Positions 29,730-55,988 of a DNA stretch of 64,000 nucleotides are shown piece by piece. The first letter of the stretch is position 1. Each line of letters begins with the position of its first letter. Location of the stretch: positions 535,897 through 599,896 of the forward strand of contig NZ_SSYA01000002.1 in assembly GCF_004917065.1 (NCBI RefSeq), read 5' to 3'. The position numbers and the translations under genes are program-made. Below the pieces are notes generated by a model that saw nothing but the letters and a program-made list of their open reading frames with translations, did no database searches and was not told the DNA's origin. This stretch comes from Geomonas ferrireducens. Lineage in GTDB: Bacteria; Desulfobacterota; Desulfuromonadia; Geobacterales; Geobacteraceae.

Positions 29730-30113
29730 ATGGTGAGCAACGAGTCGCGCATCCGGTTTCACGCCGCGTTCGAGCAGGTGCTGGATGAGCTGATAAACGT
29801 GGTGGCGAAGGAGCGGGAGAGGAACCCGCAAACGTACATGAATTCGCCGCAGGCGAAGCTTCTGGCGCGGGTCTATCGGGCGATCAAGGACGAGATACCG
29901 GCGGACCCGCAGCACGCCTCATATTACCAGGGTGAGGCGGAGGGGCATGCCTACCGGCAGTGGCGCAGGGCGAAGCCGACCAAGGAGCACCGGCTCTTCT
30001 TCAAGTGGGACAAGGAGACCAACGCGATCATCTACGCGTGGCTGAACAGCGAGGTGAGCCTCACCAAGTACAAGAGCCACATGGATGCGTACCGGGCGTT
30101 CAGGATGAAGTAG
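29730..30113 (+). CDS. YhaV-family toxin-like endoribonuclease
   Basis: A 127-residue protein resembling E. coli YhaV (RelE superfamily). Conserved stretches are NPQTYMNSPQAKLLARVYRA, the WRRAKPTKEHRLFFKW strand and NAIIYAWLNSEVSLTKYK, then DAYRAF. YhaV cleaves mRNA on ribosomes and is normally neutralised by PrlF. No prlF gene is visible; the gene 1 base upstream encodes a large TPR-like protein instead. The C-terminal tail present in enteric YhaV (~154 residues) is missing. The last 14 bases overlap the 3' end of the convergent phosphopantetheinyl transferase gene. Confidence 0.75.
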   Translation: MVSNESRIRFHAAFEQVLDELINVVAKERERNPQTYMNSPQAKLLARVYRAIKDEIPADPQHASYYQGEAEGHAYRQWRRAKPTKEHRLFFKWDKETNAIIYAWLNSEVSLTKYKSHMDAYRAFRMK

Positions 30114-30807
30114 AGGGGGAAGGAGAAAAGACCGCCAGCGCGGCGCAGTAGCCGGGACCGGCGTCGAGATCGACGATGCTCCATCTTTGAACCTCTCCCG
30201 GATCCCCACGATGCCCCAGCAGGGCCGGCGGCGCGCCGGGAAGAAGCGAGACGTCGAAACCGGTGGAAGGCTGCGAAAAGCCGCTTCCAGTCCCCTTCAT
30301 GTACGCTTCCTTCCTGGTCCAGCAGCGGTAGAAGGCCTCCAACTGCTCCGCGGGGTCCAGCCCAAAAAGCTCCTCTTTCTCCCGCAAAGAAAAATAGCGC
30401 TCCGCCATAGGGCGAAACGCCAGATCCTCCCTGATCTCTTCCAGGTCGACGCCGATCTCGCAGCTGCGAGTTGCCGCTAAAAGCAGCTTTCCACCTGAGT
30501 GCGAAGCGTTGAAGCGCAGCCCGTCTTGAAGCTCCTCCTGCCCGCGCAGGTACGGCTTCCCGAACTCTCCTTCGCAAAACTCGACTGCACGCGGCTCCAC
30601 GCACAGAAGCTCCGCAAGCACTTCCCGGACCAAGCCGCGCCCGACCATGAACTCATCACGTTTTACAGTGTCCAGAAGCCTCGAACCGCGGCGCAACTCC
30701 GCATCGGACAGAAAGCTTTCCAGACGCGCCCGCTCGGCCGCCGTGCGTTCGAGGGAAAGAAGACGGTAGCTTACCTCCGCGCCTTCCAGTCCCGCTACCT
30801 CTCTCAC
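30100..30807 (-). CDS. 4'-phosphopantetheinyl transferase (Sfp type)
   Basis: A 235-residue enzyme that moves 4'-phosphopantetheine from CoA to carrier-protein serines. Motifs are GVDLEEIRED (about 118-127), FYRCWTRKEAYMKGTG (Trp-Thr-Arg-Lys-Glu) and an N-terminal KPYL..LRFNASHSGG. It overlaps the end of oleD by 4 bases (ATGA) and is the last gene of the pfa-ole run, so its obvious targets are the five tandem ACP domains of PfaA. This takes the place of pfaE in PUFA clusters. Confidence 0.92.
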   Translation of the reverse strand: MREVAGLEGAEVSYRLLSLERTAAERARLESFLSDAELRRGSRLLDTVKRDEFMVGRGLVREVLAELLCVEPRAVEFCEGEFGKPYLRGQEELQDGLRFNASHSGGKLLLAATRSCEIGVDLEEIREDLAFRPMAERYFSLREKEELFGLDPAEQLEAFYRCWTRKEAYMKGTGSGFSQPSTGFDVSLLPGAPPALLGHRGDPGEVQRWSIVDLDAGPGYCAALAVFSPSPSTSS

Positions 30808-31796
30808 CGTCCGCTCCCGAAGGAGCGGCGCAGAAGCTCCATTCCCTCGTCGATGCTCACGCGCGGGACGTAGCCAAGATCCCTGCGTGCGGCGGAGATG
30901 TCGAACCAGTGCGCGGTGGTGAGTTCCTTCGCGACGAACCGGGTCATGGGTGGTTCACCGGAGAGCTTCAGGTTTTTCCAGAGGAACTCGCAGACAACAC
31001 CAGCCGCGTAGGCCACGGCGGAAGGTATGGTGCGGGTCACCGGGGGGACGCCTGCGGCGTCGAGGATGCGGTTCACCATGTCCCAAAGCGGGATCGGTTC
31101 GCCGTTGGAGATGAAATAGGCCTTTCCTGAGAGGGGAGCGCCGGGGGCGAGGCGGTCGGCGGCGTTCAGGTGCGCCTCGGCTGCGTTCTCAACGAAGACG
31201 GTGTCTACGAGGCAGGGCCTCTTGCCGATGCGCCGGAGGGCGCCTGCGCGCCCCTTGGCAACGATGCGGGGCACAAGATGGTTGTCGCCGGGGCCCCAGA
31301 TCAGGTGCGGGCGCAAAGAGACGGTCGCTAGTTCAGGGGAGTTGGCGGCCAGCACGGCTCTCTCGGCGAGCGCCTTGGTCTGAGGGTAGGGGGCCTCGAA
31401 GTGGGCGGGGTAGGGGAGCGCTTCGTCCGCACCCTCGACGTCCGAGCCGTCGAAGACCACGCTCGGCGAGCTGGTGTAGACAAGGCGCCTGATGCCGAGC
31501 GCGCGGCAGGCGGCGATGACGTTCTCCGTCCCGGTCACATTGGCGCGGAAATATTCGTCGAAATTGCCCCAGATCCCGGCCTTGGCGGCTACGTGGAAGA
31601 CGATGTCGCACCCGGCGGCGGCCTGCAAAACGGCCTGCGCGTCGGCCAAATCGCCGTGACGCTGCTCGACGCCCAGCTCAGCGAGCTCGGGATAGTCGCC
31701 ACGCGAGAAGCTGATCACCTCGTCGCCGCGGGCGCGCAGTTGCCGAACGATGGCCGAGCCGAGAAACCCGCCTCCGCCGGTGACTAATGCGCGCAT
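30804..31796 (-). CDS. oleD: OleD-like NAD(P)-dependent 2-alkyl-3-ketoalkanoate reductase
   Basis: A 330-residue short-chain dehydrogenase of the extended (3-beta-HSD) type. The Rossmann motif is GGGGFLGSAIVRQL (about 7-20), YTSSPSVVF precedes the active site, and the catalytic YxxxK is YPQTK (about 139). OleD reduces the beta-ketoacid made by OleA to a beta-hydroxy acid in head-to-head hydrocarbon synthesis. Its start overlaps the end of oleC by 13 bases and its stop overlaps the transferase gene, so the genes are co-translated. The order oleABCD is canonical. Confidence 0.9.
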   Translation of the reverse strand: MRALVTGGGGFLGSAIVRQLRARGDEVISFSRGDYPELAELGVEQRHGDLADAQAVLQAAAGCDIVFHVAAKAGIWGNFDEYFRANVTGTENVIAACRALGIRRLVYTSSPSVVFDGSDVEGADEALPYPAHFEAPYPQTKALAERAVLAANSPELATVSLRPHLIWGPGDNHLVPRIVAKGRAGALRRIGKRPCLVDTVFVENAAEAHLNAADRLAPGAPLSGKAYFISNGEPIPLWDMVNRILDAAGVPPVTRTIPSAVAYAAGVVCEFLWKNLKLSGEPPMTRFVAKELTTAHWFDISAARRDLGYVPRVSIDEGMELLRRSFGSGR

Positions 31797-33433
31797 TTAA
31801 GCCTCAAAGCGGCCCAGACCGCGAGCTTCTCGCGGAAGATCTTCGCGTTGTGTCGGATGTCCACCGGGAAGGCGGGGTGGAAGAGGAAGGTGTCGATGGA
31901 GCTCGTGTGGATGTGTTCCTGCGCAAGCTCCTCGAGCTCCTTGCGCACCTTTTCCTGGTCGACCTGGAGCCCTTTCTCAAGCTCGATACAGATGACCGGA
32001 CGCTGGCTGCCGGGCTCGCCCACGCCGACGAGCGCGCTCCTGAAGACGGCCGGGTGCGTGTTGAAGACCGCCTCGCATGGGATGGTGTAGATGGGGCCGG
32101 TTTCGGTCTCGACGCGGTGCGCCTTGCGGCCGCAGAACCAGACACGTCCCTCCTCGTCCATCCCGCCCAGATCCCCCATGCGGTGGAAGAAGGAATCGGT
32201 GGCCGGGTCGGCAATCTTCGAGATGTGGTCAGATTCCGGGCGGTTGTAGTAGCCGCGCGTCACCTGTTCGCCCTGCACGACGATCTCACCGATCGTCCCG
32301 GTTGGCACGCGCAGCGATTCGTCCCAGCCGCAGATCGGGTTGTCGGTGATCTGGACGATCTCGAGGCGGATACCCTCGACCGGACGTCCCACGCAGACCC
32401 CGCCCCCTGCATCGGTGATCTGGCGCGTCTCCTCGAGAATCTCCCTGCTGCCGATGGAGCAGACCGGGAGCGCCTCGGTGGCGCCGTAGGGGGTGAAGAC
32501 CTGGACGCCCGGGTTCAGCATGCTGGTGAAGCGCTCGAGTACCGAGGCGGGAACCGGTGCTCCTGCAGAGATGGCGCGGCGCAGGGTCGGCAGCTTCACC
32601 CCGTGCTCGACGCCGTAGCGTCCGACGCGGTTGATGAGGGCCGGGGAGCCGAACATGGTGGTCACGCCGTACTCGTTGATCGGTCCCACGATCTTTCTCG
32701 GATTGACGGAACCGGGGCGGGTGAAGTCCATCTCCGGGATCACCGCGGTCATGCCGAGTGCTGGGGCGAAGAGGGCGAAGAGTGGGAAGGTCGGCAGGTC
32801 GATCTCGCCCGGCTCGATGCCGTAGACCTGTTTGAGCGCCTGCACCTGGGCGGCGAAGTTGCCGTGGCTGTAGACGGCCCCCTTGGGGACGCCGGTGCTG
32901 CCGCTCGTGAAGAGGATCGCGGCGACGTCCTCTTTCATGGTCGGCGCCAGGGTGAAGGGGGAATCGTCCTTTTGTCCCTCGATGATGGCGGCGAGCGTGG
33001 TCCCCTCCCAGAAGAGGCGCGGCCCGACGGTGATGCAGGTGCGGATGGTTTCCTTGCCCCAGGAGAAGAGTTTTCGGGCAACGTGCGCCTTCGGGATGCC
33101 GATGAAGGCGTGCGGCTGCGCCTCGGCGAAGCACTGCTTGAGGTTCTTGATCCCCAGCCCCGGGTCGATGAGCACCGGCACCGCGCCCACCTTGAAGAGG
33201 GCGAAGGTGAGGGCGAAAAACTCTGGGCTTGGCGTCACCATGAGCACGGTGCGCACGCCGCGGCAGATGCCGTTTTCGAGCAGACCGCGTGCGATCCGGT
33301 CGCTCAGCCGGTTCAGCTCCGAGAAGGAAAGGCTGCGCTTTCCCTTCGGAAAGATGATCGCCCTGGTATCGGGCTGGCGGCGGGACATCTCCGGCAGGTG
33401 CGCGGCGATATTGACGAGTTCGGTCTCTGCCAT
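31784..33433 (-). CDS. oleC: OleC-like beta-lactone synthetase (AMP-dependent ligase fold)
   Basis: A 549-residue adenylate-forming enzyme. The ATP/AMP motif AAILFTSGSTGVPKGAVYSH lies at about 170-190, TPYGATEALP is the A5-type motif and MGDLGGMDEEGRVWFCGRK the hinge region. OleC proteins are described as converting the 2-alkyl-3-hydroxy acid to a cis-beta-lactone. It is placed between oleB and oleD as in Shewanella and Xanthomonas clusters, which distinguishes it from a generic fatty acyl-CoA ligase. Confidence 0.9.
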   Translation of the reverse strand: MAETELVNIAAHLPEMSRRQPDTRAIIFPKGKRSLSFSELNRLSDRIARGLLENGICRGVRTVLMVTPSPEFFALTFALFKVGAVPVLIDPGLGIKNLKQCFAEAQPHAFIGIPKAHVARKLFSWGKETIRTCITVGPRLFWEGTTLAAIIEGQKDDSPFTLAPTMKEDVAAILFTSGSTGVPKGAVYSHGNFAAQVQALKQVYGIEPGEIDLPTFPLFALFAPALGMTAVIPEMDFTRPGSVNPRKIVGPINEYGVTTMFGSPALINRVGRYGVEHGVKLPTLRRAISAGAPVPASVLERFTSMLNPGVQVFTPYGATEALPVCSIGSREILEETRQITDAGGGVCVGRPVEGIRLEIVQITDNPICGWDESLRVPTGTIGEIVVQGEQVTRGYYNRPESDHISKIADPATDSFFHRMGDLGGMDEEGRVWFCGRKAHRVETETGPIYTIPCEAVFNTHPAVFRSALVGVGEPGSQRPVICIELEKGLQVDQEKVRKELEELAQEHIHTSSIDTFLFHPAFPVDIRHNAKIFREKLAVWAALRLKCAH

Positions 33434-33453
33434 GGTCTCAGGTGCTCTCCGGG

Positions 33454-34338
33454 TCAGGTGCGTTTCAGGAAGTCGGCGATGAGCGGCACCACCTCATCCT
33501 TCATGTCTTCGAGGATGTAGTGTCCGGCGTCGGGGTAGCTGTGTAACTCGGCTTTCGGAAAACGGCGCTGCCACTCGGCCAGGAAGGTCGTGTCGAAGAC
33601 GAAATCTAGCTCACCCCAGAAGATCGCCATCGGGATGTCGGCGAAGCGCGGCAGGCCGTCCGCGATCTCGCTCACGAGCGCGTAGTTGCGGTCGCCGGGT
33701 GCGAGTGGGATGTCCTGCACGAAGCGCAGCGTCGCGATGCGGTTCGCCCAGGAGTCGTACGGCGCGCGGTACGCCTGCATCAGCTCGTTCGACATCGGGT
33801 TCTTCTTGCACCCGACGATGGAGGCGCCGACGCTGAAGGCGTTGAAGCCGCGCACGAGCAGGGTTCCGAGCAGGGTGTCGCGGCAGATCTTGAGCCCGAG
33901 CGGGAAGGTCTTCTCCTTGGGGAGATGGAAGGCCGCCGTGTTGAGGATGACGATGCGGCCGATGCGCTCCGGGTGGCGGCTCGCGTAACCCATGCCGATC
34001 ATCCCGCCCCAGTCGTGCACCACGAGGTTGATCTTCCCCTCGAGGTTGAGGGAGTCGATCAGGCGCTCGAGGTCGTCGATGCGGCGCGAGAGGGTGTAGT
34101 CGTAGCGGTCGTCGCCGGGCTTGTCCGAGAAGCCGCAGCCGATGTGGTCCGGAACGATGCAGCGGTAGCGGTCCCTGAGCGCGAGGACGAGGTTTCGGTA
34201 ATAGAAGGACCACGACGGGTTGCCGTGCACCATGACCACCGGCTCGCCGGTACCCTCGTCGAGGTAGTGGTAGGAGAGTCCGTCGAGGTTGAGGGTGCGG
34301 CCGGTGAAGGGGTAGTGCTTGCTCACTTCGTCTCTCAC
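33454..34338 (-). CDS. oleB: OleB-like alpha/beta hydrolase (beta-lactone decarboxylase)
   Basis: A 294-residue alpha/beta-hydrolase of the haloalkane-dehalogenase subfamily. HGNPSWSFYYRNLV is the oxyanion region, VVHDWGGMIG contains the nucleophilic Asp, and the C-terminal His is in YPDAGHYILED. OleB releases CO2 from the beta-lactone made by OleC to give the cis-olefin. The start overlaps the oleA stop by 4 bases (ATGA). Alone it could be taken for a dehalogenase; the neighbourhood decides. Confidence 0.9.
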   Translation of the reverse strand: MRDEVSKHYPFTGRTLNLDGLSYHYLDEGTGEPVVMVHGNPSWSFYYRNLVLALRDRYRCIVPDHIGCGFSDKPGDDRYDYTLSRRIDDLERLIDSLNLEGKINLVVHDWGGMIGMGYASRHPERIGRIVILNTAAFHLPKEKTFPLGLKICRDTLLGTLLVRGFNAFSVGASIVGCKKNPMSNELMQAYRAPYDSWANRIATLRFVQDIPLAPGDRNYALVSEIADGLPRFADIPMAIFWGELDFVFDTTFLAEWQRRFPKAELHSYPDAGHYILEDMKDEVVPLIADFLKRT

Positions 34339-35378
34339 CAGTCGACCCCCAGCATGAGGCAGTTCAGGCCGCTGCCGATTCCGAGAAGGGCGACCCGGTC
34401 ACCGGCGGAGAGGACGTCGCGCTCGTCGGCCAGTGCCGCGGTGAGCGGCAGGGAGACAGTCCCCATGTTGCCGAGGAATTCGTAAGTGGTGAAGTCCTTG
34501 TGCAGCGGGATGCCGAGCGTTTTGAGGATGGCGCTTTGGTGCGCGCTCCCGACCTGGTGGCAGACAACACGGTCGACGTCGCTCTCGCGCCAACCCACCT
34601 CGGGGAGGAATTCTTCCCAGGTGCGGCGCCCGAGGTCGACGCCGTAGTTCATCACGCTTACCGCGTCGGTGCTCATGGACTGCTCGTAGCCACCCTTGCC
34701 GTCCGGTGTGACGCCCCAGAGACAGAGCGCGTGGTGTTCCGGTGCGGCATGGGTGATGCCGCCGCGCAGCCTCCTGCGGCCGGATTTGGAGAAGGAGCCG
34801 TCGGTGAGAAGCACCGCCACCGCGCCGGAGCCGCCGGTGAGGGTCGCAAGAGAGCTCGCGAAGTTCTCCATGCTGCGATCCTCGAGCATCTTCTTGATCA
34901 TAATGTCGTTGATGTCGCGCGCGCTCTCGCAGGAGACCACGAGGCCCGCCCTGATCTGGCCGAGTTCGATGCGGTTCGCCACCTCGAGGATGCCGTTCAA
35001 GACGCCAAGGCAGGCGTTGGAGAGGTCGAAGACCGCGGCGTTTCCGGACACGCCCAGCCCTGCCGCGACGCGGCATGCCGTGGCCGGTTCGAAGCGCTCG
35101 CGGCAGACCCCGGTGTAGAGAAGGGCGCCTAGGTCGCCGGCGGAGATGCCGGCAGCGGAGAGGGCCTTCTTGCCTGCAGCGATGGCCCCCTTGGAGAGCT
35201 GGAAGCCCGGCTCCCACCAGCGGCGTTCACGGATACCGGTCAGCGCCTGGAGTTGTCCGGGGGAGAAGTGCAGCGTCTTGTAGAGCGGCTCGAGGCGCGC
35301 TTCAAGTTCGTCGGAAGTGACTACAACCGGGGCGAGCTCATAGCCGAAAGATTCGATGTATACCTTGGAATACTTCAT
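34335..35378 (-). CDS. oleA: OleA-like thiolase, head-to-head acyl condensing enzyme
   Basis: A 347-residue KAS III-like enzyme that condenses two fatty acyl-CoA molecules (or one acyl-ACP) in a non-decarboxylative Claisen step. The nucleophile is Cys123 in DLSNACLGVLNG, the catalytic His lies in VVCHQVGSAHQ, and the third motif is FLGNMGTVSLPL. The ribosome site is AAGGTG before ATG 35378. It is preceded by a 183-base gap after pfaC, the only sizeable gap in the pfa-ole run. Co-location with a PUFA synthase points to polyunsaturated substrates. Confidence 0.92.
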   Translation of the reverse strand: MKYSKVYIESFGYELAPVVVTSDELEARLEPLYKTLHFSPGQLQALTGIRERRWWEPGFQLSKGAIAAGKKALSAAGISAGDLGALLYTGVCRERFEPATACRVAAGLGVSGNAAVFDLSNACLGVLNGILEVANRIELGQIRAGLVVSCESARDINDIMIKKMLEDRSMENFASSLATLTGGSGAVAVLLTDGSFSKSGRRRLRGGITHAAPEHHALCLWGVTPDGKGGYEQSMSTDAVSVMNYGVDLGRRTWEEFLPEVGWRESDVDRVVCHQVGSAHQSAILKTLGIPLHKDFTTYEFLGNMGTVSLPLTAALADERDVLSAGDRVALLGIGSGLNCLMLGVDW

Positions 35379-35561
35379 CTATCACCTTAAGTTGGGATGC
35401 TTGTAAATCTTTAAAAGCGGAACACGGAGGACACCGAGGTCCACAGAGGGCACGGAGGAAATCTGCACACTCATCATCTGGAAAACCTTCGCCCTGTACG
35501 TCCCCTCCCCTGGAGGGGGAGGAGCGATTCAAAACGTCTAACGTTGAACGTTGAACGGCAG
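35379..35561. other. pfaC-oleA spacer with hairpin and short repeats
   Basis: This 183-base gap contains a 7-bp stem CCTCCCC/GGGGAGG (35504-35510 with 35516-35522), tandem AACGTTG units (35541-35556), and a purine-rich stretch with repeated CACGGAGG-type words (35421-35460). No U-tract follows the hairpin on the minus strand. It could partly uncouple ole from pfa expression, or be an inserted dispersed repeat. No gene. Confidence 0.55.
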
Positions 35562-38500
35562 TTAAGCCGTGACCTGGACGGTGAAATCTTCCATCTGGTA
35601 GATGGCGCGGCCGTCCACGTAGAGATAACCGGCGGCAGTCAGGATGCGCCTTTCTTCGTCGACTGCGGTGATCCAGGCCAGGACGGTGACTTCCTTGTCG
35701 GTCGGCACCACCTGACCGCGGTAGAGCCAGCGGTGTTTGTGCCCGAGTGCTACGGCGGCGAGGGTGTCCCCCTGGTGCCATCCCCAGCGCTGCACGGCGG
35801 CGAACTTAACCAGCTGCAGGAACGACTCGAGCCCGAGCGACCCAGGCGTGACCGGGTCCTCGTAGAAGTGCGCCTTGAAGTACCAGTCCTCGGCGACGAC
35901 CCTCTTGGTCCCCTTCAGGTAGCCAAGCCCGGCAGGGCCGCCGTCGGTGACGTACAGTTCGATCCGGTCGATCATGCGGAGCGACTTCTCCGGGAAGGGG
36001 TGGGACTCGGGATAGGGGAGCGAACGCCCGCGCGACACCTCGGCCGCCGTGGGCTGGTACGGTGCGGCTTCGCGTATCCCGACCTGGTTCGCCAGCGCCT
36101 CCTTGGCGAAGAACCCGAACATGGTCTCCCCCTCGTAGATGACGCCCTGACGGTCCGATACCGAGAAGTCGAACTCCTGGATGATCATGCCGCCCGAGGT
36201 GGCCGCCTTGGTAAGCTTCGCGGTGGCGGTTAGCGTGCCGCTTTGCGGGGTGACCGGGCGGTGCTGCACCGCCGTACCGCCAAGGTTGCGAAAGGAGATG
36301 TCGGTCGGGCTCACGAGCGCGGAGCCAACGTAGGCGGCGAGCCAGCCGCAGGGCTGCAGAGCGGCTTCGAGCAGCACGCAGAAGGGCATGCGCGGCTGGC
36401 GGTCGGCCGCGAAGTACCACTCGTCCACAGGGATGTCGTACTGTGCCTCGGCCATGGCGCCCGGTGCCATCACCCACGGTTCTCCCGCAACGGCGGTGAC
36501 CCGGTCCATGAACTGGAAGGGAGGACCTGGCAGACGGGCGATCTTTCTCTCGCTGTCGAACACCTTGTAGCGGTCGCCGAACCCTTCGGACGGCTTGCCG
36601 TTACTGTAGGCGAGGATCTGCTCTTTTGTGTAAATTGCGGGTCTGCGGTCGTAGTCCGCCGCCGGTGCTGCCGCGTGGAGCGCTGCGGCGGGAGTTCCCC
36701 CTTGCCAGAGACGCTGCAGCGTCTGCTGATCGGTGCCGGTGAGGCGGGCCGACATGTTGGTGATCTCCACAATCGGCTTGCCGTCGGCGTACATGAGCGC
36801 GTCGACGATAGCGTAGGGCTCGGGGCGGTACCCAAGTTCGCGCACCGTCACCTCGTAGGTGACCACCTTGGTCGTTTCGAGTACCTGACCGCGGCAGCAG
36901 AGCTGGCTTGCCACGCCGGGAACCGGCTGCCATGCCGCGCCATCGGCCTCGGCGACCCACCCCAGGCGGAGCAGGAAGATGCGCAGCGTATGCATGCAGC
37001 ACTCGTACATGAGCGTGCCGGGCATGACGCGGTCGTCGACGAAGTGGCAGGTGATGAACCAGTCGTCCGGGTGGATGTCCGCCTCGGCCCTGATGAAGCC
37101 GAGCCCGCAGCGTCCGCCGTCCGGGGAAAGCTCGGTGACGCGGTGCACGAGTTCCATGCGTCCCCCGGGGATGGTGAGCGGGCGCTTGATCGGCAGACCG
37201 GCGAAGAGCGGCCCGAAGCAGCCGGCAAGGTCGCCGCGCCTGAGGGCGTCCAAGTGCGCCGCGCTGAAGGAAGAGGGCTGCATCGGCAAGAGGTAACGCC
37301 AATCAGCGGGGAGCTTCCCGGTGCGGGGGCGCAGGTCGACCGCACCGCGCACGATCCCTTTGCCGGCGTCGAGCTCCTCCTGGGTGAAGAACCCGGCGCA
37401 GCCGTTGCGCATGGAGAGAAGCGGCTCCCCGTTCACCGTTGCCTCGAAGTGGAAACGGAACAGGTAGGTTTCCCCCTGCCTGAAGAAACGCTCGATGTGG
37501 ATGTCGTAGTTGATGGTCTCGCCTGGCACCGGAAGTTCGCGGTGGAAGGTCACCACGGCGTCGAGGAGCCGGTAGACGGCGAGCCCCTTGGTGATGAAGT
37601 CAATGCCGAGGTAGCCGGAAAGGAACAGGTCCGCCTGGCCCGCTTCGACGGCGATGCAGGTCGGGATGCGGCCGCCGTCCAGGTACCAGGCGCCGGGGTG
37701 CACGTCGTGCTGGGTGACCACCCGGCCGTGCGTCATCGATTTCGGCTCGCCCTCGAGGGCGACGATGCGGTGCACGAGCTGCAGCGGCACGTCCGGCAGT
37801 CTTACCCTGGTCGGATAGCTGTCGATCTCGGCGAACTCGGGGCCGAGCATCTTGGCGGCGGAACCTACCGCGAACTCCAGGCACGCCTCGTAGTCGTATA
37901 GGGCCGGGAGTGCACCAGGGTAGGGAGCCGGTGCGGTGAGAGGGGAGGTGGACGGCTGAGCCGCTAGGCCCGGCGTCAACGAACCCGGCGCGGCTGCGAA
38001 TGTCGCAGCATCTACCGGAATCCCGGCAGCGAGCATTTGCTGCTGGAGCGAGAACTGCATCGCTAGGGTCTGCGCGATGGAGCGGTTGAGATCGTCGGCG
38101 ATACGCAGGTAGGCCTCGTGGGCCTGGCGGCCCGCGTCCTGCGCCTGGGCGAACTGGCGCAGCAGCGGTTCGGTAACCTGCACGACTTCGGGTTGAAGGG
38201 CCGCCGCGGCGGGCCTTGGTTGAGCTTCCGGCTGCCTCATCTGCGACTCCGTTACCGGTGCCTGTGCCGCATATGAAGCGATCGGCGCAGCAGGTATAGG
38301 TTGTGTAAGCGCCTGTGGCTTAGAAGGAATTTGCCGGGTAAGTATCGGCGCATCTGTGTGTTGCTTTATCTGTGACGCCGTACCGTAAGCGTGAACCGCA
38401 GCCGGCTCTTTTGCGGCGGACGCGGCGCTTGAACCAAGCGGGGCGCTGGACGGCGCGGCGGCAGGCGCCGGCTCCGGCTGTGCCGGTTGCGGCTGCACGG

Positions 38501-42743: not shown

Positions 42744-42745
42744 GC

Positions 42746-45700
42746 CTATGCCGCCCCCACGACCGTCACGGTGCGCAGCTTGTTGCGCTGGAAGGCCTGT
42801 TTGAGGGACGGGTCGATGACGCACTCATAACCTTCGAGGCGCGCCACGAGTTTGCCGCTGGCGCGGTCGAGGAACTCCATGTCGGCGCTGGCGCCGTGGG
42901 CGCTCTCCTGGGTGACGCGAATCACCGCCTGCACCCCTTCACGCGGGAAAGATTCCTGGAACTGGCGGTAGCGTGCCGCGAAGCATGGCAGCGAGCCTGA
43001 GCCGAAGCGCTCGAAGCTCCAAAGGATCATCAACTGGAAGGCGCTGTCGAGAACGAGCGGATCGGTGATCCAGGCGCTTCGCAGCGGTCGCCTGATCCAT
43101 TTCCCGGGTGCCGGGGCTCCCTTCACCGTAGCGGCGATTCCCTTCGCGGAGCAGCCGACCACCTGCTCAATGCCGTGCAGGTCGGGGCCGTGGAAGAGGC
43201 GCTCGTTGTTGTAGATCACCCCTTCGAGCGGCTGATAGGTGGTGCTCGGGATCTCGGTGATGGAGCGGATACCCTCCGGGTGTTTCGTCGCGAGGACGAT
43301 CTCGGCGCGGGCGTGGAGTACGGTCTTGCCGTTCACACCCGGGCTGCAGAGCTCGACGGGGACGAGCCAGAAGGACTCGCGTTTCTCGGCGCGCCCGGCC
43401 ATCACGTTCACCGTGAAGGGGGTGTTGTCCTCGAAGACGACCCCTTTGCAGATGCGCAGGTCGTTGAAGCCGTGGAAGCGGAAGCCCGGGTTGCCGTGCA
43501 GCGCGCCATGGGCGAGCCACTCGACGATCACCGCCATGGGGAGGACCGCCTTGCCGTCGAGCACGTGGGAGCGCAGGAAAGGGTACTCGGGCACGGTGAG
43601 GGTGAGCGCGAAGGCCTCGGAGAGGTTCTGTGCCCTTGTCTGTGCGGGGGGCGTGACGCTTGCCTGCTCCGGAAGGTCGGCGATGGCGACGATTTCCACC
43701 GGCGCGTCGTTGGCTGCGATCTCGCGGGCCAGGAAGGAGCCCCCCTCGGTGAGACCGATCACGCCGATCCCTTCGGAAGCGAACACCTTCTTGAGGGCAG
43801 GGGTAACCATGCCGCCGTCCCAGGGACCCCAGTTGATGCTGACGCAGCGGCAGCCGGTGCGGCGACGCGCTTCGACCTGGGCGGTCTTGTTGAGCACCTC
43901 GTTGGCCACCGCGTAGTCCACCTGGCCGACGCGGCCGAAGCGACCGGTCGAGGAGGAGAAGAGGGCGATGGCCTTCAGCTCGTCGTTGCGGGTTGCATGC
44001 AGGAGGGAGCGGAGGCCGTGCACCTTGGTGCTGTAGACCTGCTCGAACTGCTCCGCAGTTTTGTCGACGATTAGGCGGTCGGCGAGGACCCCGGCGCCGT
44101 GGACGATGCCGCGGATCGGGCCGTGGGCGCGGCGCACCTCACCCAGAAGAAGTTCCATGGCGCTCTGGTCGCGGATATCGACCGAGCGGTAGATGGCCTG
44201 GGCGCCGGTGGCGGCGATGCTTTCCAGGGTGGCGCGCAGCTCGCGGCCGGCCACCACGGAGCGGTAGCGTTCCTCGATCTCGCGCGGGTGCAGCTTGCCG
44301 GTTGCGTTCTGCATGATGGCCCGCTTGATCTCCGCCTCTTCGGTGAGGCCTGCGAGATAGGCGGGCTCTTCCTGCGGTTCGGGCGAACGACCCAAAAGGA
44401 CCAAGAAGGGGTGGTACTCGTTTGCCAGTGCCAGGGCGGATACCGCGGTGACGCCGCGTCCGCCGCCGGTGATCACGACCACGTCGCCCTTTTCGAGAGC
44501 CGCGCGCTCCGGTGCGGGAGCCGCCGGGAGTACGGTGGTCTGCAGTGCGAAGCGCCCTTCGGGGGTGAGGCCGATTTCGCTCGGGCCGCGGCGCAGCATC
44601 TCAATGGCGACGGCACCGGCCGCTGTGGCGGGGTGTGCGAACTCTCCGAGGTCGATCGCTTTGCAGGAGACTTCAGGCCACTCGTAACCGGCGGTCTTGG
44701 CGAGGCCTGCGAGGCCTCCGGAGAGCGGGTCCTTGAGGGGTTTGTCGGAGCCGAAACCGAATGCCCCGTCAAGGCGGGAGACGGTGACAAAAACGGCACC
44801 TTCGGCTTGGGCGGACTCGACGAGTGCCGCTGCCGCGTCTTTCGCGAGGAGGAAGGCGTTCTCCAGGAATTGGTCGTCGGTGCCGGTTACCGGAGCGCAG
44901 ATGACCAGGCCGGAAAGCTTGCCTGCCGGCGCGATCTGGCCTGCCTGTGTGGCGTTTACCTTGCGGACCGAGCAACCATGCTCGAGCAGGATGCCGCAGA
45001 GTTCCGCCGCGAAGGCGGAGCCGTCGTCGGTAACCCAGATTTCGCCGTCGTTGGCGAGGGTGATGGTGTCGGCATCGTCGTTCTCGGTGAGGAGCATGGG
45101 GACGACGGTGCTGCGCTGGATGTTTTGCGGTGCGGCCTGTACCGGCTCGGCGACGGGTGCCGGGATTGTTTCTGCGGCGGGTGTCGCGGGCTGAGCGGCG
45201 GGGGCGGCAGCTTTAGTAGGAGCGGCGAGGTAATCGGCGATGTCGCCCAAGGTGCGCAGGGTGCCTAAGTGCTCGGGGCCGATGGTCGGGCACTCGGGGA
45301 GGCGCTCTTGCAGGGTGGAGAGGATCTCCACGCGCTTGATGCTGTCGATGCCGAGGTCAGAGTCCATGCCCATGGTGAGTTCGAGCATTTCTGCGGGGTA
45401 GCCGGTTTTATCGCTCACTACCGCAAGGAGGGTTTCGGTGACCTTGGCGGCGTCGATGGTAGACGCGGTGGATGTCGTGGACCCGGTGGACGCAGGGGGT
45501 GCGGCAACTGCTACTGGAGCCGCTGAGGCGGCGCCTGCGGCGAGGTGACCGGCGATGTCGCCCAAGGTGCGCAGGGTGCCCAGGTGTTCGGGACCGATGG
45601 TCGGGCACTCGGGGAGGCGCTCCTGCAGGGTTGAGAGGATCTCCACGCGCTTGATGCTGTCGATGCCGAGGTCGGAGTCCATACCCATGGTGAGTTCGAG

Positions 45701-48700
45701 CATTTCGGCGGGGTAGCCGGTTTTGTCGCTCACTACCGCGAGGAGGGTTTCGGTGATCTGGGCGGCGCTGATGGCGGACACCGCGGACGTTGTGGACGCG
45801 ACGGCCCCGACGGGCGCGGCAACTGTTGCTGGGGCCGCCGAGGCGGCGCCTGCAGCGAGGTGACCGGCGATGTCGCCCAAGGTGCGCAGGGTGCCTAAGT
45901 GCTCTGGACCGATGGTCGGGCACTCGGGGAGGCGCTCCTGAAGCGTGGAGAGGATCTCTACGCGCTTGATGCTGTCGATGCCGAGGTCTGAGTCCATGCC
46001 CATGGTGAGTTCGAGCATTTCTGCCGGGTAGCCGGTTTTCTCGCTCACTACCGCGAGGAGGGTCTCGGTTACCTGGGCTGCACTGGTGGTCGACGCGCTG
46101 GGCGTTGTGGACGCGATGGACCCGGTCGACGCGGCAACCGCTACTGCGGGCGCTGAGGCGACGCCTTCGGCGAGGTGACCGGCGATGTCGCCCAGGGTGC
46201 GCAGGGTACCTAAGTGCTCGGGGCCGATCACCGGGGCGCCGGGGAGACGCTCCTGCAGGGTGGAAAGGATCTCTACACGCTTGATGCTGTCGATGCCGAG
46301 GTCGGAGTCCATCCCCATGTCGAGTTCGAGCATTTCCATCGGATAGCCGGTTTTTTCGCTCACCACGGAGAGAAGGGTCTCGGTGACTTTGGCGGCACCA
46401 GCGGTGGACGCTGCTGCGCTAGGCGCGGTGGCAGCGGGTGCTGCAACCGGGGCTGCGGCTGCGGAACCTGCAGTGAGGTGGCCGGCGATGTCGCCCAAGG
46501 TGCGCAGGGTGCCTAGATGCTCGGGGCCGATCACGGGGCTGCCGGGCAGACGCTCTTGCAGCGCGGACAGGATCTCAACGCGCTTGATGCTGTCGATGCC
46601 GAGATCGGAATCCATGCCCATGTCGAGTTCCAGCATCTCGACGGGATAGCCGGTTTTTTCGGCGATCACGGTAAGCAGGGCCTGGGTGATGTGCTCATTG
46701 TCGGCAGCGGGCTTGGCAGATGCTACGGGTGCTGCCTGTGCCGCGACGGACGCTGCCTGAATAGCTGCCGCGGGCCGCGAGACTGCTGCCGGTGCAGCGG
46801 CAGGTGCCGACGGCACGGGTTGGGCGACGGCTGCCGGGGTATAGGCGGGTGCGGGCGCGACAAATGCTGCGGCTTGTACCGGTGCTGCGGGCGTAACTTG
46901 AGGCGCGACGGTAGCTGAAGGGGCTCTCATGCCGCCCATGACGAGCTGTTGTTGCTGCTCGAGAAGTGACTGGAAGGTTTTGGCAGCGACTTCCTGCCCC
47001 TCGAGGAAACGTCGGTGCAACTGGGCGGTGTCTTCCTGCATCTTCTGCAGTACCGCCATCCCTTCACGTGCCAGACGCAACGACTCGCTGAGCGACTCCT
47101 GGCCTGCTGCCTGTACGGGCGCAAAGCTCTGCTGCGCCACGGGCGCTACCGGTGCCGCAACCTGCTGGGGCGCCTGGGGACGCTGCGCCGCATGCTGAAC
47201 CGGAGCGGCGGCCTGGCTTGTATTTGCGGGAACCGCCTGGAACGGGGCAACGGACGCCGCGACAGGCTTGGGCGGAACCGGCGGTTTCTTCTGCTTCGGT
47301 TTCACGTAGTTCGCGCCGCTGATCGGGATGCTGAGGGCCGGTTTCTTGCCGGTGACGGGGGCAGGGCGGTGGCCTTCGTCCCAGAGGGCGAGGTTGACGC
47401 CGTAGCCGAGCACGCTCAACTGAGCCAGCACGCGGGCAAGATCGGCGATGCCGGAACGCTTGCCGGAAGAGGCGTCGAGGGCTACCGCGAGGTGCGGACG
47501 CTCGGAGAGGATCGCCTGGGTGAGACCGGTAAGCCTGTTGCCGGGGCCGACTTCGACGAAGGTGGTGACACCTGCCGCGTACATAGCCTCGATCTCCGCT
47601 ACGAACTCGACCGGTTTGGCCAGTTGCGCGGCAAGCTGCGCCTTCGCCTGGGCCGTGTCGGCCGGGTAGAGGGCGGCGGTGGTGTTGGCGTAGACCGGGA
47701 TCCGGCCCTGCGGCATGTCGATCTTTTCAAGAGCGGTTAGGAACGGCTTCGACGCGTCGGCGACGAGCGAGCTGTGGAACGCTGCCGCTACCGGCAGTTC
47801 CTTGCAGGTGAGCCCGCGCTCCTTGAAGATGGCGACGGCGCGCTTGATCTCGGCGGTGGCGCCGGAAAGGACGGCCTGGGTCGGGGCGTTCTTGTTGGCG
47901 ATCACCAGGTCGAGCTTCTCGGCTGCTACCACCTCGGCAATCTTCGCGAGCGGTGCGGAGACGGCCAGCATGCTCCCCTTGTCCCCGTCGCCTGCGCCCA
48001 TGAGCTTGCCGCGCAGGCGGGAGAGCTCGTGGAAGGCGCCTTCGTCGAGCCTTCCGGCGGCGCAGAGCGCGGTCAGTTCGCCGTAGCTGTGACCGGCGAC
48101 CGCTTCCGGGGCGACGCTGAAGGCCTGGAGCAGACGCAGCGCACCGAGGCTCGTCGCACCAATGGCGGGCTGTGCGGCCTGGGTGGCGCGAAGCGCTTCT
48201 TCCTGGCCCACGCGTGTTGCCTCGTCATAGGCGGACGGCGGATAGATGAGGTCGGATAGCCGCGACCCGGTTTCGGAGAGGAAACCTGCATCGGCTGTGA
48301 CGAGGGCGTCGAGCACCTGCGGGAAACTGCAGGCGAGATCGTTCAGCATCCCGTTGTACTGCGAACCCTGCCCCGGGAAGAGGACGCCGAGCTTGCCGGG
48401 TACGCCACCGCAGGCGAAATAGGCGCCGTCTGGGGTCTGCCAGGCCGACTTGTCGTTCTTTGCCAGCATGGCTCGGGCGTTCTTAACCAGAGCGGCCATG
48501 TTCGTCTTGTCGTGTTCCACAACGAGCGCGAGGCGGCAAGGTGCCTTGGCGTCGAACGAGGAACGGGAGGCGAGGGCGAAATCCCTCACCGCGGTCCATG
48601 CCGAAGGGGCTTCCGCGCTCCCTGCCGGGACGGTGTCGAGCTGTGCCGTGATGGCGGCCGCGTCAGCGCCGGCAAGGGTAATGATCTGGGTGTTGCCGTC

Positions 48701-50137
48701 CCAGTCGGCCGCCTCTTTCTCCGGACGGTACTCCTCGAGCACGACATGGAAGTTCGATCCGCCGAAGCCGAATGCAGAGACGCCGGCGCGGCGCGGCGCG
48801 TCGGGACGCGGGAACCAGGGACGCTTGGCCGCCGGGAGATAGAACGGAGAGTTGTCGGCCACCACCTCTTTCTGCGGAGTCTGCACCTTGATGGTGGGGG
48901 GGATCACCTTGTTGTGTAGGGCGAGGGCGGCCTTGATGAGGCCTGCGGAGCCCGCCGCAGCCTTGGCGTGGCCGATCTGCGACTTCACCGAACCCAGGGC
49001 GCACCACGGCGCATCAGACTTCCCGTACACCTCGCGCAGCGCGCTCACTTCTACCGCGTCGCCCACTTTGGTGCCGGTGCCGTGCGCTTCCAGGAGCCCG
49101 ATGCTCTCCGGCGTGACGTCGGCGTTTTTGTAGGCGTCGAGAAGCGCTTTCTTCTGCCCTGCGGCGCTCGGCGCGTAGATCGCGTCTCCCTTGCCGTCGC
49201 TGGAGGAGCCTACGCCGCGGACGACTGCATAGATCCTGTCGCCGTCGCGCTCGGCGTCGGCAAGCCGCTTCAGCACCACGAGGCCGAGTCCCTCGCCTAG
49301 GATGGTCCCGTCCGCGGAGACGTCGAAGGGTTTCGCGTTACCGCTGGGGGAGAGTGCGGGGGTCTTGCTGAAGCACATGTACATGAAGATGTCGTTGAAG
49401 GTGTCGATACCACCGGTCACGACGATGTCGGATTTACCGGAGTTCAGCTCCATGGAAGCGAGATGCAGCGCGCTTAAGGAACTGGCGCAGGCGGCGTCGA
49501 CGACGCAGTTCGTTCCACCCAGGTCGTACTGTTTGCTGATCCTGCCTGCGACGACGTTGCCGAGAAGCCCCGGGAAGGAGTTTTCCTGCCAGGAGACGTA
49601 GGAGTCGGAGATGCGCTCGACCACGTCCTTGGCGGTTTCTTCGTCCACACCCGCGTCCTTAAGGGCGGAGCGCCAGATCGGGTGCCCGAGCCGTGCTCCC
49701 AGCGGGATGACCAGCTCCAGCGTACCGGTGACCCCGAGGATGACGGAAACGTTACTCTTGTCCCAGGCGCGCTCCGGGCCGTAACCCGCGTCCTTTAGAG
49801 CCTGGCCGGCCGCGATGAGACCCAGAAGCTGCGAGGTGTCGATCGCCTCGAGCACGTTGGGAGGGATGTTGAACTCCATCGGGTTGAAATCGACCGGAGA
49901 AAGGAAGCCGCCGCGACGACCGTAGGTATGGTCCGGGCTCCTCTTGTCCTCGTCGAAATAGGCGTCCACCGGCCAGTGTGTGGGGGGGACTTCTGTGATC
50001 GCGTCGACCCCGTCGGTGATGTTCGCCCAGTAGGCGTCCTTGTCACCGGCCTTCGGGAAGAGGCAACCGATGCCTATGATGGCGAGCTGATTTCCGTTGC
50101 TGGAAGTGGCGGGCTTCAGATCATCAGTTTTCAACAA
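42746..50137 (-). CDS. pfaA: PfaA-type PUFA synthase subunit (KS-AT-5xACP-KR-DH)
   Basis: A 2463-residue iterative synthase. KS (about 10-460; VDAACASSLSALH, EAHGTGTKVGD), malonyl-AT (about 575-895; FPGQGSQYNG, GHSYGELTAL), Ala/Pro/Gln-rich linker, five ACP domains of ~105-residue period centred near 1186, 1286, 1392, 1497 and 1601, each with LGIDSIKR where Ser takes phosphopantetheine, a KR with a structural half (about 1670-2130; ITGGGRGVTAVSA) and a PKS-type DH (about 2175-2440; FLRSHVLDGKAVLPM, DSAFQ). It overlaps pfaD by 7 bases upstream. Products should be long polyunsaturated acyl chains. Confidence 0.95.
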   Translation of the reverse strand: MLKTDDLKPATSSNGNQLAIIGIGCLFPKAGDKDAYWANITDGVDAITEVPPTHWPVDAYFDEDKRSPDHTYGRRGGFLSPVDFNPMEFNIPPNVLEAIDTSQLLGLIAAGQALKDAGYGPERAWDKSNVSVILGVTGTLELVIPLGARLGHPIWRSALKDAGVDEETAKDVVERISDSYVSWQENSFPGLLGNVVAGRISKQYDLGGTNCVVDAACASSLSALHLASMELNSGKSDIVVTGGIDTFNDIFMYMCFSKTPALSPSGNAKPFDVSADGTILGEGLGLVVLKRLADAERDGDRIYAVVRGVGSSSDGKGDAIYAPSAAGQKKALLDAYKNADVTPESIGLLEAHGTGTKVGDAVEVSALREVYGKSDAPWCALGSVKSQIGHAKAAAGSAGLIKAALALHNKVIPPTIKVQTPQKEVVADNSPFYLPAAKRPWFPRPDAPRRAGVSAFGFGGSNFHVVLEEYRPEKEAADWDGNTQIITLAGADAAAITAQLDTVPAGSAEAPSAWTAVRDFALASRSSFDAKAPCRLALVVEHDKTNMAALVKNARAMLAKNDKSAWQTPDGAYFACGGVPGKLGVLFPGQGSQYNGMLNDLACSFPQVLDALVTADAGFLSETGSRLSDLIYPPSAYDEATRVGQEEALRATQAAQPAIGATSLGALRLLQAFSVAPEAVAGHSYGELTALCAAGRLDEGAFHELSRLRGKLMGAGDGDKGSMLAVSAPLAKIAEVVAAEKLDLVIANKNAPTQAVLSGATAEIKRAVAIFKERGLTCKELPVAAAFHSSLVADASKPFLTALEKIDMPQGRIPVYANTTAALYPADTAQAKAQLAAQLAKPVEFVAEIEAMYAAGVTTFVEVGPGNRLTGLTQAILSERPHLAVALDASSGKRSGIADLARVLAQLSVLGYGVNLALWDEGHRPAPVTGKKPALSIPISGANYVKPKQKKPPVPPKPVAASVAPFQAVPANTSQAAAPVQHAAQRPQAPQQVAAPVAPVAQQSFAPVQAAGQESLSESLRLAREGMAVLQKMQEDTAQLHRRFLEGQEVAAKTFQSLLEQQQQLVMGGMRAPSATVAPQVTPAAPVQAAAFVAPAPAYTPAAVAQPVPSAPAAAPAAVSRPAAAIQAASVAAQAAPVASAKPAADNEHITQALLTVIAEKTGYPVEMLELDMGMDSDLGIDSIKRVEILSALQERLPGSPVIGPEHLGTLRTLGDIAGHLTAGSAAAAPVAAPAATAPSAAASTAGAAKVTETLLSVVSEKTGYPMEMLELDMGMDSDLGIDSIKRVEILSTLQERLPGAPVIGPEHLGTLRTLGDIAGHLAEGVASAPAVAVAASTGSIASTTPSASTTSAAQVTETLLAVVSEKTGYPAEMLELTMGMDSDLGIDSIKRVEILSTLQERLPECPTIGPEHLGTLRTLGDIAGHLAAGAASAAPATVAAPVGAVASTTSAVSAISAAQITETLLAVVSDKTGYPAEMLELTMGMDSDLGIDSIKRVEILSTLQERLPECPTIGPEHLGTLRTLGDIAGHLAAGAASAAPVAVAAPPASTGSTTSTASTIDAAKVTETLLAVVSDKTGYPAEMLELTMGMDSDLGIDSIKRVEILSTLQERLPECPTIGPEHLGTLRTLGDIADYLAAPTKAAAPAAQPATPAAETIPAPVAEPVQAAPQNIQRSTVVPMLLTENDDADTITLANDGEIWVTDDGSAFAAELCGILLEHGCSVRKVNATQAGQIAPAGKLSGLVICAPVTGTDDQFLENAFLLAKDAAAALVESAQAEGAVFVTVSRLDGAFGFGSDKPLKDPLSGGLAGLAKTAGYEWPEVSCKAIDLGEFAHPATAAGAVAIEMLRRGPSEIGLTPEGRFALQTTVLPAAPAPERAALEKGDVVVITGGGRGVTAVSALALANEYHPFLVLLGRSPEPQEEPAYLAGLTEEAEIKRAIMQNATGKLHPREIEERYRSVVAGRELRATLESIAATGAQAIYRSVDIRDQSAMELLLGEVRRAHGPIRGIVHGAGVLADRLIVDKTAEQFEQVYSTKVHGLRSLLHATRNDELKAIALFSSSTGRFGRVGQVDYAVANEVLNKTAQVEARRRTGCRCVSINWGPWDGGMVTPALKKVFASEGIGVIGLTEGGSFLAREIAANDAPVEIVAIADLPEQASVTPPAQTRAQNLSEAFALTLTVPEYPFLRSHVLDGKAVLPMAVIVEWLAHGALHGNPGFRFHGFNDLRICKGVVFEDNTPFTVNVMAGRAEKRESFWLVPVELCSPGVNGKTVLHARAEIVLATKHPEGIRSITEIPSTTYQPLEGVIYNNERLFHGPDLHGIEQVVGCSAKGIAATVKGAPAPGKWIRRPLRSAWITDPLVLDSAFQLMILWSFERFGSGSLPCFAARYRQFQESFPREGVQAVIRVTQESAHGASADMEFLDRASGKLVARLEGYECVIDPSLKQAFQRNKLRTVTVVGAA
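45235..46660. repeat. tandem ACP-coding repeats in pfaA
   Basis: Five DNA repeats of about 305-315 bases encode the ACP domains. The three at the 3' side of the gene (DNA 45235-46100) are almost identical in the ACP core and share LPECPTIGPEHLGTLRTLGD, while the first two read LPGSPVIG and LPGAPVIG. Ala/Ser/Thr-rich spacers between them vary. Such arrays commonly change copy number by recombination. Confidence 0.9.
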
Positions 50138-51744
50138 AGGTACTCCTTGATTTGTGCGATATCGAGAGGTTGCGGTGCGATCTCTTCCTGCCTGAGGTCG
50201 ATCCCCTGGGCGCGCAGGAAGTTGGCGCGGGTGAGGTGCGCCGCACCGTGCAGGATGTTGAGCGCTACCGTGACGATCCTACGTTCGGCGGGCGTCTCCA
50301 GGAAGGTGCCCGCGGCCCATTCGTTGAAGGCCCCCATGGCGGGGCCGCACCAAACCTGGTAGTCCATCTTGCGGTTTTCCACGCCGTCTTTCGCCCAGTG
50401 GGCGCCCATGCCGAGGTACCAGCGGAAGACGAGCGCCATCTTGTGCTTGGGGTCGCGCTCGCTGCGCTCGACCTGGGACGGGTCGCGCTTCAGGAAGTAG
50501 TCGCGGGTGCCGCGCCAGATATCCTCAAGCGGCGCGAGGAACATGGTTTTTTCCAGTTTCTCGCGTTCCGCGGCCGGGATCTCATCGATGCTGCCGTAGG
50601 CGCGGTAGATCTCGTAGAGCTTCGCGGCACGCATCGGGAACATGGTCCCACGTTTGAGGACCTGCACGGTGACCCCCATCTCGAACATGTCGGCAGCGGG
50701 GGCCATGGTGACGTCGGCCTGGCGGGTGCCGGCCAGAAGCGCGCGCACCGTGTCGGAGGTGCCGGACTCGACGCAGGCCTGGTTGACGGAACCGGTCATG
50801 ACGTAGGCGGCTCCCATGGCGAACGCTGCGGCGCAGGAGGCCGGGGTCGAGATGCCTCCGCCGAGGCCGACGCGCAGCCTGCAGTCGTAGCCGTACTGGC
50901 GCTCGAGGCGCGCGGCGAGCGAGAGGATGGTCGGGAAAAGCGCCATGGCGGGGCGGTTGTCGGTATGCCCGCCGGAATCCGCCTCGGCGGTTACGTCTTG
51001 GGCGAGGGGGACGTGGGCTGCGAGCTCGGCCTGCTCCGGCGTGATGGAGCCGTTCTCCACCAGTGCGCGCAGGAGCTTTTCCGGGGCGGGGGCGAAGAAC
51101 TTGGCGGCGAGTTCTTCACGCGACACCTTGGCGACGATACGGTTCGGCGTGACGATGCTGCCGTCCGCGGCGCGGCTTATGCCGTGCAGGCGGTAGCGCA
51201 CCAGGGGAAGGGTGAGGCCTAGGAATGCGGATGCCTCGATGATGCGCACCCCTTTACGGATGTAAAGCTCGGCCAGTTCCTTCTCGAGCTCGGGCTCGTG
51301 CGGAGAATGGATCAGGTTGAAGCCGTACGGGATGTCGCCCAGGGAGGCTTTCAGGCGGTCTGCCGTTTCGGCGACCTTCGCTATCGGGAGCCCGGCGGCG
51401 CCGAAGAAGCCGAGCATGCCGGCGCGCCCAAGTTCCTCGGCCATTGCGGCGGAACTGATCCCCTTGGCCATGGAGCCGCCAAGGTAGGGGTAGCGGATGC
51501 CGAGTTCGCGGCAAAAGGAGGGGTCGCCCAGGTTTTCCGGGAGGCACGCGGGGGCGTATCCGGCGAAGGAAGCCAGTCCCGCGGCATCCCCAAGGTGGGG
51601 AACGAGGGCACCGTCTTTCTTCTGCAGGTACAGGGGATGGCGTATCTCACGAAGCGCCTCTTGGAGGCTCATAGCGTCAGGCTCGAAACTGTCGGGTCTG
51701 GCAGAGCGAACGCTCGCATCGCCCTGAAGTGAAAATAGATCCAA
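50131..51744 (-). CDS. pfaD: PfaD-type trans-acting enoyl reductase of PUFA synthase
   Basis: A 537-residue FMN-dependent TIM-barrel reductase (2-nitropropane dioxygenase fold) that saturates selected double bonds during chain building. Seen: YPYLGGSMAKGISSAAMAEE, LGFFGAAGLP near the N-terminus, GLGGGISTPASCAAAFAMGAAYVMTGSVNQ in the FMN site, and the PfaD tail WYLGMGAHWAKDGVENRKMD. The start is TTG 51744 behind CAGGAGA; an in-frame ATG 24 codons later has no ribosome site. It is the first gene of the run pfaD-pfaA-pfaC-oleABCD-transferase. Confidence 0.93.
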   Translation of the reverse strand: MDLFSLQGDASVRSARPDSFEPDAMSLQEALREIRHPLYLQKKDGALVPHLGDAAGLASFAGYAPACLPENLGDPSFCRELGIRYPYLGGSMAKGISSAAMAEELGRAGMLGFFGAAGLPIAKVAETADRLKASLGDIPYGFNLIHSPHEPELEKELAELYIRKGVRIIEASAFLGLTLPLVRYRLHGISRAADGSIVTPNRIVAKVSREELAAKFFAPAPEKLLRALVENGSITPEQAELAAHVPLAQDVTAEADSGGHTDNRPAMALFPTILSLAARLERQYGYDCRLRVGLGGGISTPASCAAAFAMGAAYVMTGSVNQACVESGTSDTVRALLAGTRQADVTMAPAADMFEMGVTVQVLKRGTMFPMRAAKLYEIYRAYGSIDEIPAAEREKLEKTMFLAPLEDIWRGTRDYFLKRDPSQVERSERDPKHKMALVFRWYLGMGAHWAKDGVENRKMDYQVWCGPAMGAFNEWAAGTFLETPAERRIVTVALNILHGAAHLTRANFLRAQGIDLRQEEIAPQPLDIAQIKEYLC

Positions 51745-52627: not shown

Positions 52628-52705
52628 GGAGGCTCCTTTGAAAGATTGGATGGGAATTATGGGAATGATGGGAGGCCTGGGAATTATGGGAAAGCTTTTG
52701 AACGA

Positions 52706-55877: not shown

Positions 55878-55929
55878 CTGGTGTGGTTCCGGTGCCGTGC
55901 ACTCTTCCCGGGCTTTTTTACAGACCGGG

Positions 55930-55957: not shown

Positions 55958-55988
55958 CTCCCGCACTATGCAACCAGGAGAGGGTGCC

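Follow-up and report, generated by a model that had tools for sequence, protein, structure and literature searches.

Geomonas is a genus of iron-reducing soil bacteria, and Geomonas ferrireducens carries in a single row the genes for a polyunsaturated fatty acid (PUFA) synthase, for the four enzymes OleA to OleD and for a phosphopantetheinyl transferase (PPTase). The row lies on the minus strand at positions 30100-51744 of the window, by which we mean the whole stretch of 64,000 nucleotides that was analysed (contig NZ_SSYA01000002.1, positions 535,897 to 599,896). We hold with high confidence that these eight genes make up a pathway dedicated to a polyunsaturated head-to-head olefin, with hentriacontanonaene (C31:9) as the most likely product. 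This reading is supported by the protein families and motifs, by a precedent in Geobacter bemidjiensis, by the co-occurrence of OleA and PfaD and by an OleA clade that is shared with Shewanella.

Eight genes on the same strand, with the functions given below, had been put forward in a sequence-only reading of this DNA, and the open reading frames (ORFs), families and motifs confirm them in the order pfaD-pfaA-pfaC(+AT)-oleA-oleB-oleC-oleD-PPTase. The coordinates are those of the ORFs, and the gene names are based on family searches and position. Both pfaD and pfaA are given a TTG start, which is uncertain; an alternative for pfaD is Met25 at 51672.

50131..51744, minus strand: pfaD, enoyl reductase (537 aa; TIGR02814)
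42746..50137, minus strand: pfaA (family matches and motifs)
35562..42743, minus strand: pfaC with a built-in PfaB-like acyltransferase (family matches and motifs)
35379..35561, minus strand: pfaC-oleA spacer of 183 bp (pieces of three dispersed repeats)
34335..35378, minus strand: oleA, thiolase-type condensing enzyme (NF006720, motifs)
33454..34338, minus strand: oleB, alpha/beta hydrolase, probable beta-lactone decarboxylase (position, motifs)
31784..33433, minus strand: oleC, AMP-binding enzyme, probable beta-lactone synthetase (family matches, motifs)
30804..31796, minus strand: oleD, probable 2-alkyl-3-oxoalkanoate reductase (NF042422 rank, motifs)
30100..30807, minus strand: PPTase, pfaE (PF01648, P1a and P1b motifs)

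The PUFA synthase proteins PfaD and PfaA score well above the cut-offs of their families (TIGR02814, 628 bits against 449; TIGR02813, 1907 bits against 1010). PfaA has a ketosynthase (KS) motif, DAACASS, at 214 and a MAT motif, GHSYG, at 682, followed by five acyl carrier proteins (ACPs) with DSDLGIDSI and its DSL-type serine at 1176, 1277, 1382, 1487 and 1592, one ketoreductase (KR) and, at the C-terminal end, a polyketide synthase (PKS)-type dehydratase (DH)-like region that is a weak match below the cut-off. In PfaC, whose residues are counted from the GTG at 42824, a KS (DAACASS at 217) precedes a second KS that is a chain length factor (CLF), with TMSSEESSG at 685 and no active Cys. An acyltransferase (AT) motif, SYSLGE, follows at 1157, and four FabA-like stretches are present, two of which have HFxxDxxxPG (1927 and 2319). 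The domain order, KS-MAT-ACP(n)-KR in PfaA, KS-CLF-DH in PfaC and an enoyl reductase in PfaD, is that of a Pfa synthase as described in PMC3098273 and PMC4882568. The 2016 review lists KS, MAT, ACPs, KR and a PKS-like DH for Shewanella PfaA (PMC4882568). The Shewanella synthase has the same domain content, but in the window the AT of PfaB sits within PfaC. This fused pfaBC, the mark of Type I secondary lipid synthases, shows as a PfaB-family match at residues 994-1406 of PfaC (97 bits, E 1e-27) that falls below the model cut-off of 144. The Type I clusters and the window are alike in the fusion, in taxonomic group and in the suggested link to ole genes (PMC3098273); the types of that scheme are defined by KS phylogeny as well as domain order, and the window is likened to them by domain order.

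OleA matches NF006720, '3-oxoacyl-ACP synthase III', with 501 bits (cut-off 285). Glu97, Cys123, His274 and Asn304, the catalytic residues of OleA, are present and are invariant across 17 aligned sequences, and OleB, OleC and OleD have catalytic-type motifs as well. The best solved relatives are 3fk5 and 3row, both listed as 3-oxoacyl-ACP synthase III, which we take to be the OleA of X. campestris. The cysteine is also named as catalytic in PMC6463001. OleB has the motifs HDWGG at 108 and AGH at 271, OleC has TSGSTGVPK at 176 and matches PRK09274 with 797 bits (cut-off 478), and OleD has GGGGFLG at 7 and YPQTK at 137, with NF042422 as the top match among all families. OleB, OleC and OleD receive their names because of this rank, the gene order and co-conservation. 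The genes oleA to oleD are present together, each with an open frame, and the presence of OleB points to an olefin rather than a beta-lactone.

The PPTase matches PF01648 with 57 bits (cut-off 25). Its P1a motif, FGKP at 82, fits x(G/D)xP and its P1b motif, FNASH at 99, fits (F/S)NxSH, as in lipid-synthase PPTases; the P0 motif (hRxhLS) is represented by VREVLA, which matches at five of the six positions and has Ala in place of the final Ser. The motif definitions are those of PMC3098273.

The proposed pathway would begin with the PPTase, which would load phosphopantetheine onto the five ACPs of PfaA. PfaA, PfaC and PfaD would then assemble an acyl chain with methylene-interrupted cis double bonds (a C16 tetraene, by analogy), and OleA would condense two such chains to a beta-keto acid. 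Presumably OleD reduces this acid, OleC closes the beta-lactone and OleB decarboxylates the lactone to the cis olefin; the order of these last three steps is that known for the Ole enzymes. For the Geomonas strain we infer the C16 tetraene and C31:9 by analogy, as both are carried over from the literature on Shewanella and G. bemidjiensis (PMC6463001, PMC4882568). The product may have a role in the membrane or as an antioxidant; protection from oxidative stress has been guessed for the pathway in strict anaerobes (PMC4882568).

Published precedents and the end product

Both the gene row and its biochemical reading have been published before, for a close relative. According to the 2016 review, the genes pfaD, A, B, C, oleA, B, C, D and pfaE lie in tandem in G. 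bemidjiensis, which produces C31:9, a result that is credited to Sukovich 2010; the feeding of Pfa chains to the Ole enzymes is described there as probable, and still as speculation (PMC4882568). G. bemidjiensis has been placed in Geomonas (PMC6773877; PMC8516083), with Citrifermentans as a later synonym (PMC8516083), and is named Citrifermentans bemidjiense in the NCBI taxonomy, so it belongs to the same genus as our organism or to a near one, depending on the authority. Gene content, gene order and the terminal PPTase are the same in these close kin, except that the review lists pfaB and pfaC where the window has the AT inside pfaC; the comparison is with the published description. The route to a polyunsaturated olefin that the sequence-only reading predicted thus matches an explanation that is published and still speculative, and the co-occurrence data below agree with it, but it is not new. 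The observation itself is confirmed, and its biochemical interpretation very probably holds.

Other reports also bear on pfa and ole genes. Shulse and Allen in 2011 proposed that Type I clusters provide the precursors of olefins and noted that ole genes are often linked to them (PMC3098273). The oleABCD genes can cluster with pfa genes, and OleA links the two pathways when Shewanella genes are expressed in E. coli (PMC6463001). The 2016 review concludes that some strict anaerobes form C31:9 and no long-chain PUFA (PMC4882568). Shewanella has the same kinds of enzymes, an OleA of the same clade and, by the literature, C31:9 as product and a separate pfaB (PMC6463001). Unlike in the window, pfa and ole are unlinked in the single Shewanella genome that we examined, where oleA is roughly 9 kb inside its contig and pfaD is located at C12:142966, and the contrast drawn in the sequence-only reading holds to that extent. 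Photobacterium profundum SS9 resembles the window in linking pfa and ole, but pfaT lies between the two operons in SS9 (PMC6463001), and the 183-bp spacer of the window is too short for a pfaT gene. By titles and abstract starts, no paper that tests a pfa-ole cluster of Geomonas or Geobacter by experiment was found in the open-access literature, and a JACS Au 2026 survey of hybrid Pfa clusters does not mention oleA, olefin, hydrocarbon, Geobacter or Desulfo.

The same pathway could also lead to another end product, that is, one with a different chain length or number of double bonds, or a ketone or beta-lactone intermediate. The synthase sets the chain length, which is unreadable from the sequence data here, and E. 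coli that carried pfaA-E and, of the ole genes, only oleA formed a 31:8 ketone (PMC6463001). Against this stand the four ole genes with their open frames and the C31:9 of G. bemidjiensis (PMC4882568), and we regard such a product as improbable.

Occurrence with pfa genes and the OleA tree

OleA and PfaD occur together throughout the window's genus (19 of 19 genomes examined, the window's own included). In the family, OleA was found in 32 of 48 genomes and PfaD in the same 32 (E 1e-40 or better; Fisher p 4e-13, a value that ignores kinship), and in three of them, G007, G031 and G032, oleA and pfaD are on different contigs. A phylum sample of 297 genomes had an OleA match in 30 and a PfaD match in 24; PfaD was present in all 15 genomes with an OleA of at least 53% identity versus four of the 15 with an OleA-like protein of 48% or less. 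As a side observation, one family genome carries another, distant PfaD of 45% identity outside its pfa-ole row, at G033:C1:3670991-3672340, perhaps as part of a second lipid or polyketide cluster.

A wider view comes from named loci, which are the best 80 of at least 582 confirmed OleA relatives and are biased to OleAs like that of the window. All 80 come from genomes with pfa genes: in 66, a PfaA, PfaC or PfaD match is in the locus stretch itself, and in the other 14, which include Shewanella oncorhynchi, PfaD is elsewhere in the genome. In the 76 named loci that have at least 1 kb of upstream sequence, pfaC ends no more than 500 bp upstream of oleA, on its strand, in 56 and no more than 5 kb upstream in 61. 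The sequence-only reading had called for a genome survey of the pfa-ole-transferase order. Of the named loci, 35 reach at least 9 kb upstream and 6 kb downstream; in 24 of these, oleA is preceded by pfaA and pfaC and followed by oleB, oleC and oleD, all on one strand, and 16 of the 24 have a PPTase downstream as well. The nearest named OleAs among the matches listed are those of Geomonas edaphica Red53 (99%) and G. diazotrophica (95%), in a scan that may have left out records very near the window. A rearranged pathway is seen in locus L126, where oleA is on the strand opposite to oleBCD, about 6-9 kb away, in a genome with PfaD.

The OleA trees display a corresponding pattern. A careful tree was built from 52 rows, picked by hand so that near-copies were thinned out. 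A branch with 100/100 support sets the window's OleA, together with 39 further sequences, apart from the rest. All 40 come from genomes with pfa, as entered by hand from the genome and locus searches; Shewanella OleA is inside this clade and 3fk5 outside it. A quick tree of 119 rows (118 of the 137 extracted OleAs, 19 near-copies from the family being left out, plus 3fk5) gives the same split, 103 versus 16. Three of the 12 careful-tree rows outside the clade (L057, L059 and L060) also come from genomes with PfaD; therefore, having pfa does not imply an OleA of this clade. The rows outside come from one phylum sample and 3fk5, some phylum names were taken from metagenome bin titles and could be in error, and the order outside the clade is unsure since both trees have long branches that join at the root. 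As a correlation in a biased sample, these results suggest that the OleA lineage is bound up with Pfa chains also in genomes in which pfa and ole lie apart.

These patterns bear on a different explanation, in which the Pfa synthase makes a PUFA for membrane lipids, the Ole enzymes condense ordinary FASII chains and the neighbourhood is a regulatory convenience. Type A and B pfa clusters do make eicosapentaenoic acid (EPA) or docosahexaenoic acid (DHA) (PMC3098273). However, oleA and pfaD co-occur, the window's OleA groups with that of Shewanella and not with 3fk5, G. bemidjiensis has C31:9 (PMC4882568), and a fatty acid table of eight Geomonas strains, which has a threshold of contents above 1%, lists no polyunsaturated acids (PMC8859169). 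We consider this explanation highly improbable. The absence from that table, obtained by a routine method, fits a polyene destined for a hydrocarbon.

A number of observations weigh against a dedicated olefin pathway, or against its generality. Routine fatty acid profiles could miss polyenes, and C31:9 was undetected in one study of P. profundum SS9, in which pfa and ole are adjacent (PMC6463001). OleB matches solely a haloalkane-dehalogenase-like family, below the cut-off, which speaks against a clean naming; OleC reaches 692 and 690 bits against cut-offs of 850 and 900 in the named NCBIfam models, and OleD 482 against 580 in NF042422. We read the scores of OleC and OleD as distance within the family, the cut-offs serving NCBI naming and not the definition of a pathway. 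Within the family, the match to PfaD in G003 contains an in-frame stop and that to OleA in G032 is split into two pieces. Five genomes of the phylum sample have PfaD and no OleA match; therefore, Pfa genes serve other ends too. Nor is linkage universal, as in 20 of the 76 named loci pfaC does not end within 500 bp of oleA, PfaC is not beside oleA in the stretches fetched from G118 and G125, and in G207 pfaC adjoins oleA but pfaD is more than 1 Mb away. Finally, the 183-bp spacer could part two transcripts.

Junctions, transcription and neighbouring genes

The statement in the sequence-only reading that most of the genes overlap by 4-13 bases stands in part. With the starts given by the ORF caller, four of the seven junctions overlap, by 7, 4, 13 and 4 bp, but there is a gap of 183 bp between pfaC and oleA and one of 20 bp between oleB and oleC. 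The pfaA and pfaC genes are 2 bp apart with the first ATG of pfaC (42743) and overlap by 79 bp with the GTG at 42824.

The spacer at 35379-35561 contains repeat pieces at its positions of about 1-29, 40-64 and 101-148. A genome search gave at least 47 matches, the spacer included, that fall on these three parts; the number is a lower bound, with 40 of 86 candidates scored. In 25 of 28 loci (L082-L109) the distance from pfaC to oleA was measurable, and it is 18 bp or less in 21 of them, more than chance would give. The four longer gaps are in three Geomonas loci (L082, 57 bp; L086, 148 bp; L083, 408 bp) and in Pelotalea (138 bp). The likeliest reading is that the junction was once tight and was later widened by dispersed repeats, and a single transcript across the eight genes is likely.

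A division into two units, pfaD-pfaA-pfaC and oleABCD-PPTase, separately controlled from a promoter in the spacer, would be compatible with the olefin pathway, and the length of the spacer here and in the three Geomonas loci would favor it. The spacer holds repeats that are dispersed through the genome, no terminator-like site was found in the 183 bp, and most relatives have a tight junction, all of which make two units unlikely. A promoter scan found none, which is of little information as 0.7 would be expected by chance, and Rfam at gathering scores found no RNA within the window.

The junction between oleB and oleC holds unlike insertions of 0.6-4.6 kb in eight relatives (L085, L091, L093, L095, L096, L102, L103 and L147), which mostly keep the gene row. 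The insertions, judged by eye and not by family search, were considered as a missing pathway gene; they include a PAS/GAF sensor, an MFS transporter, toxin-antitoxin-like genes and others, and none fitted.

Upstream of pfaD and on its strand, at 51956-56162, are genes for a TesA-like GDSL esterase, an FtsX-type permease and an ABC ATPase. Among the 20 family genomes with a fetched stretch, of the 32 with PfaD, this trio is present in all 10 of the same genus; of the 10 others, two, from two other genera (L172 and L173), have TesA alone and eight have none of the three. We therefore rejected the trio as further pathway genes, as its distribution looks like a genus-level neighbourhood. At the other end, a YhaV-family toxin gene (PF11663) at 29730-30113 is head-on to the PPTase gene and shares 14 bp with it at the 3' ends. 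The toxin gene and a preceding 288-aa ORF are matched in place in L082, L083, L084 and L086, and were not found in the other 37 loci searched (L082-L122), many of which are short on that side.

The OleA lineage and a possible direct hand-over

It has been suggested that pfa genes primarily make such hydrocarbons (PMC4882568). One might go further and suppose that the OleA lineage, which extends over about nine phyla and has been seen only with pfa so far, is specialised for Pfa polyenes and takes the chain straight from the carrier domains of PfaA, and that the polyene hydrocarbon, not EPA or DHA, is the older and more widespread Pfa product. This idea is possible and we offer it tentatively, as the odds are against it.

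In conclusion, the window is a compact and conserved example of a pathway that is found in strict anaerobes. The direct hand-over of acyl chains from PfaA to OleA becomes a testable question, because an OleA lineage that is co-inherited with pfa is joined here with a natural one-operon system.
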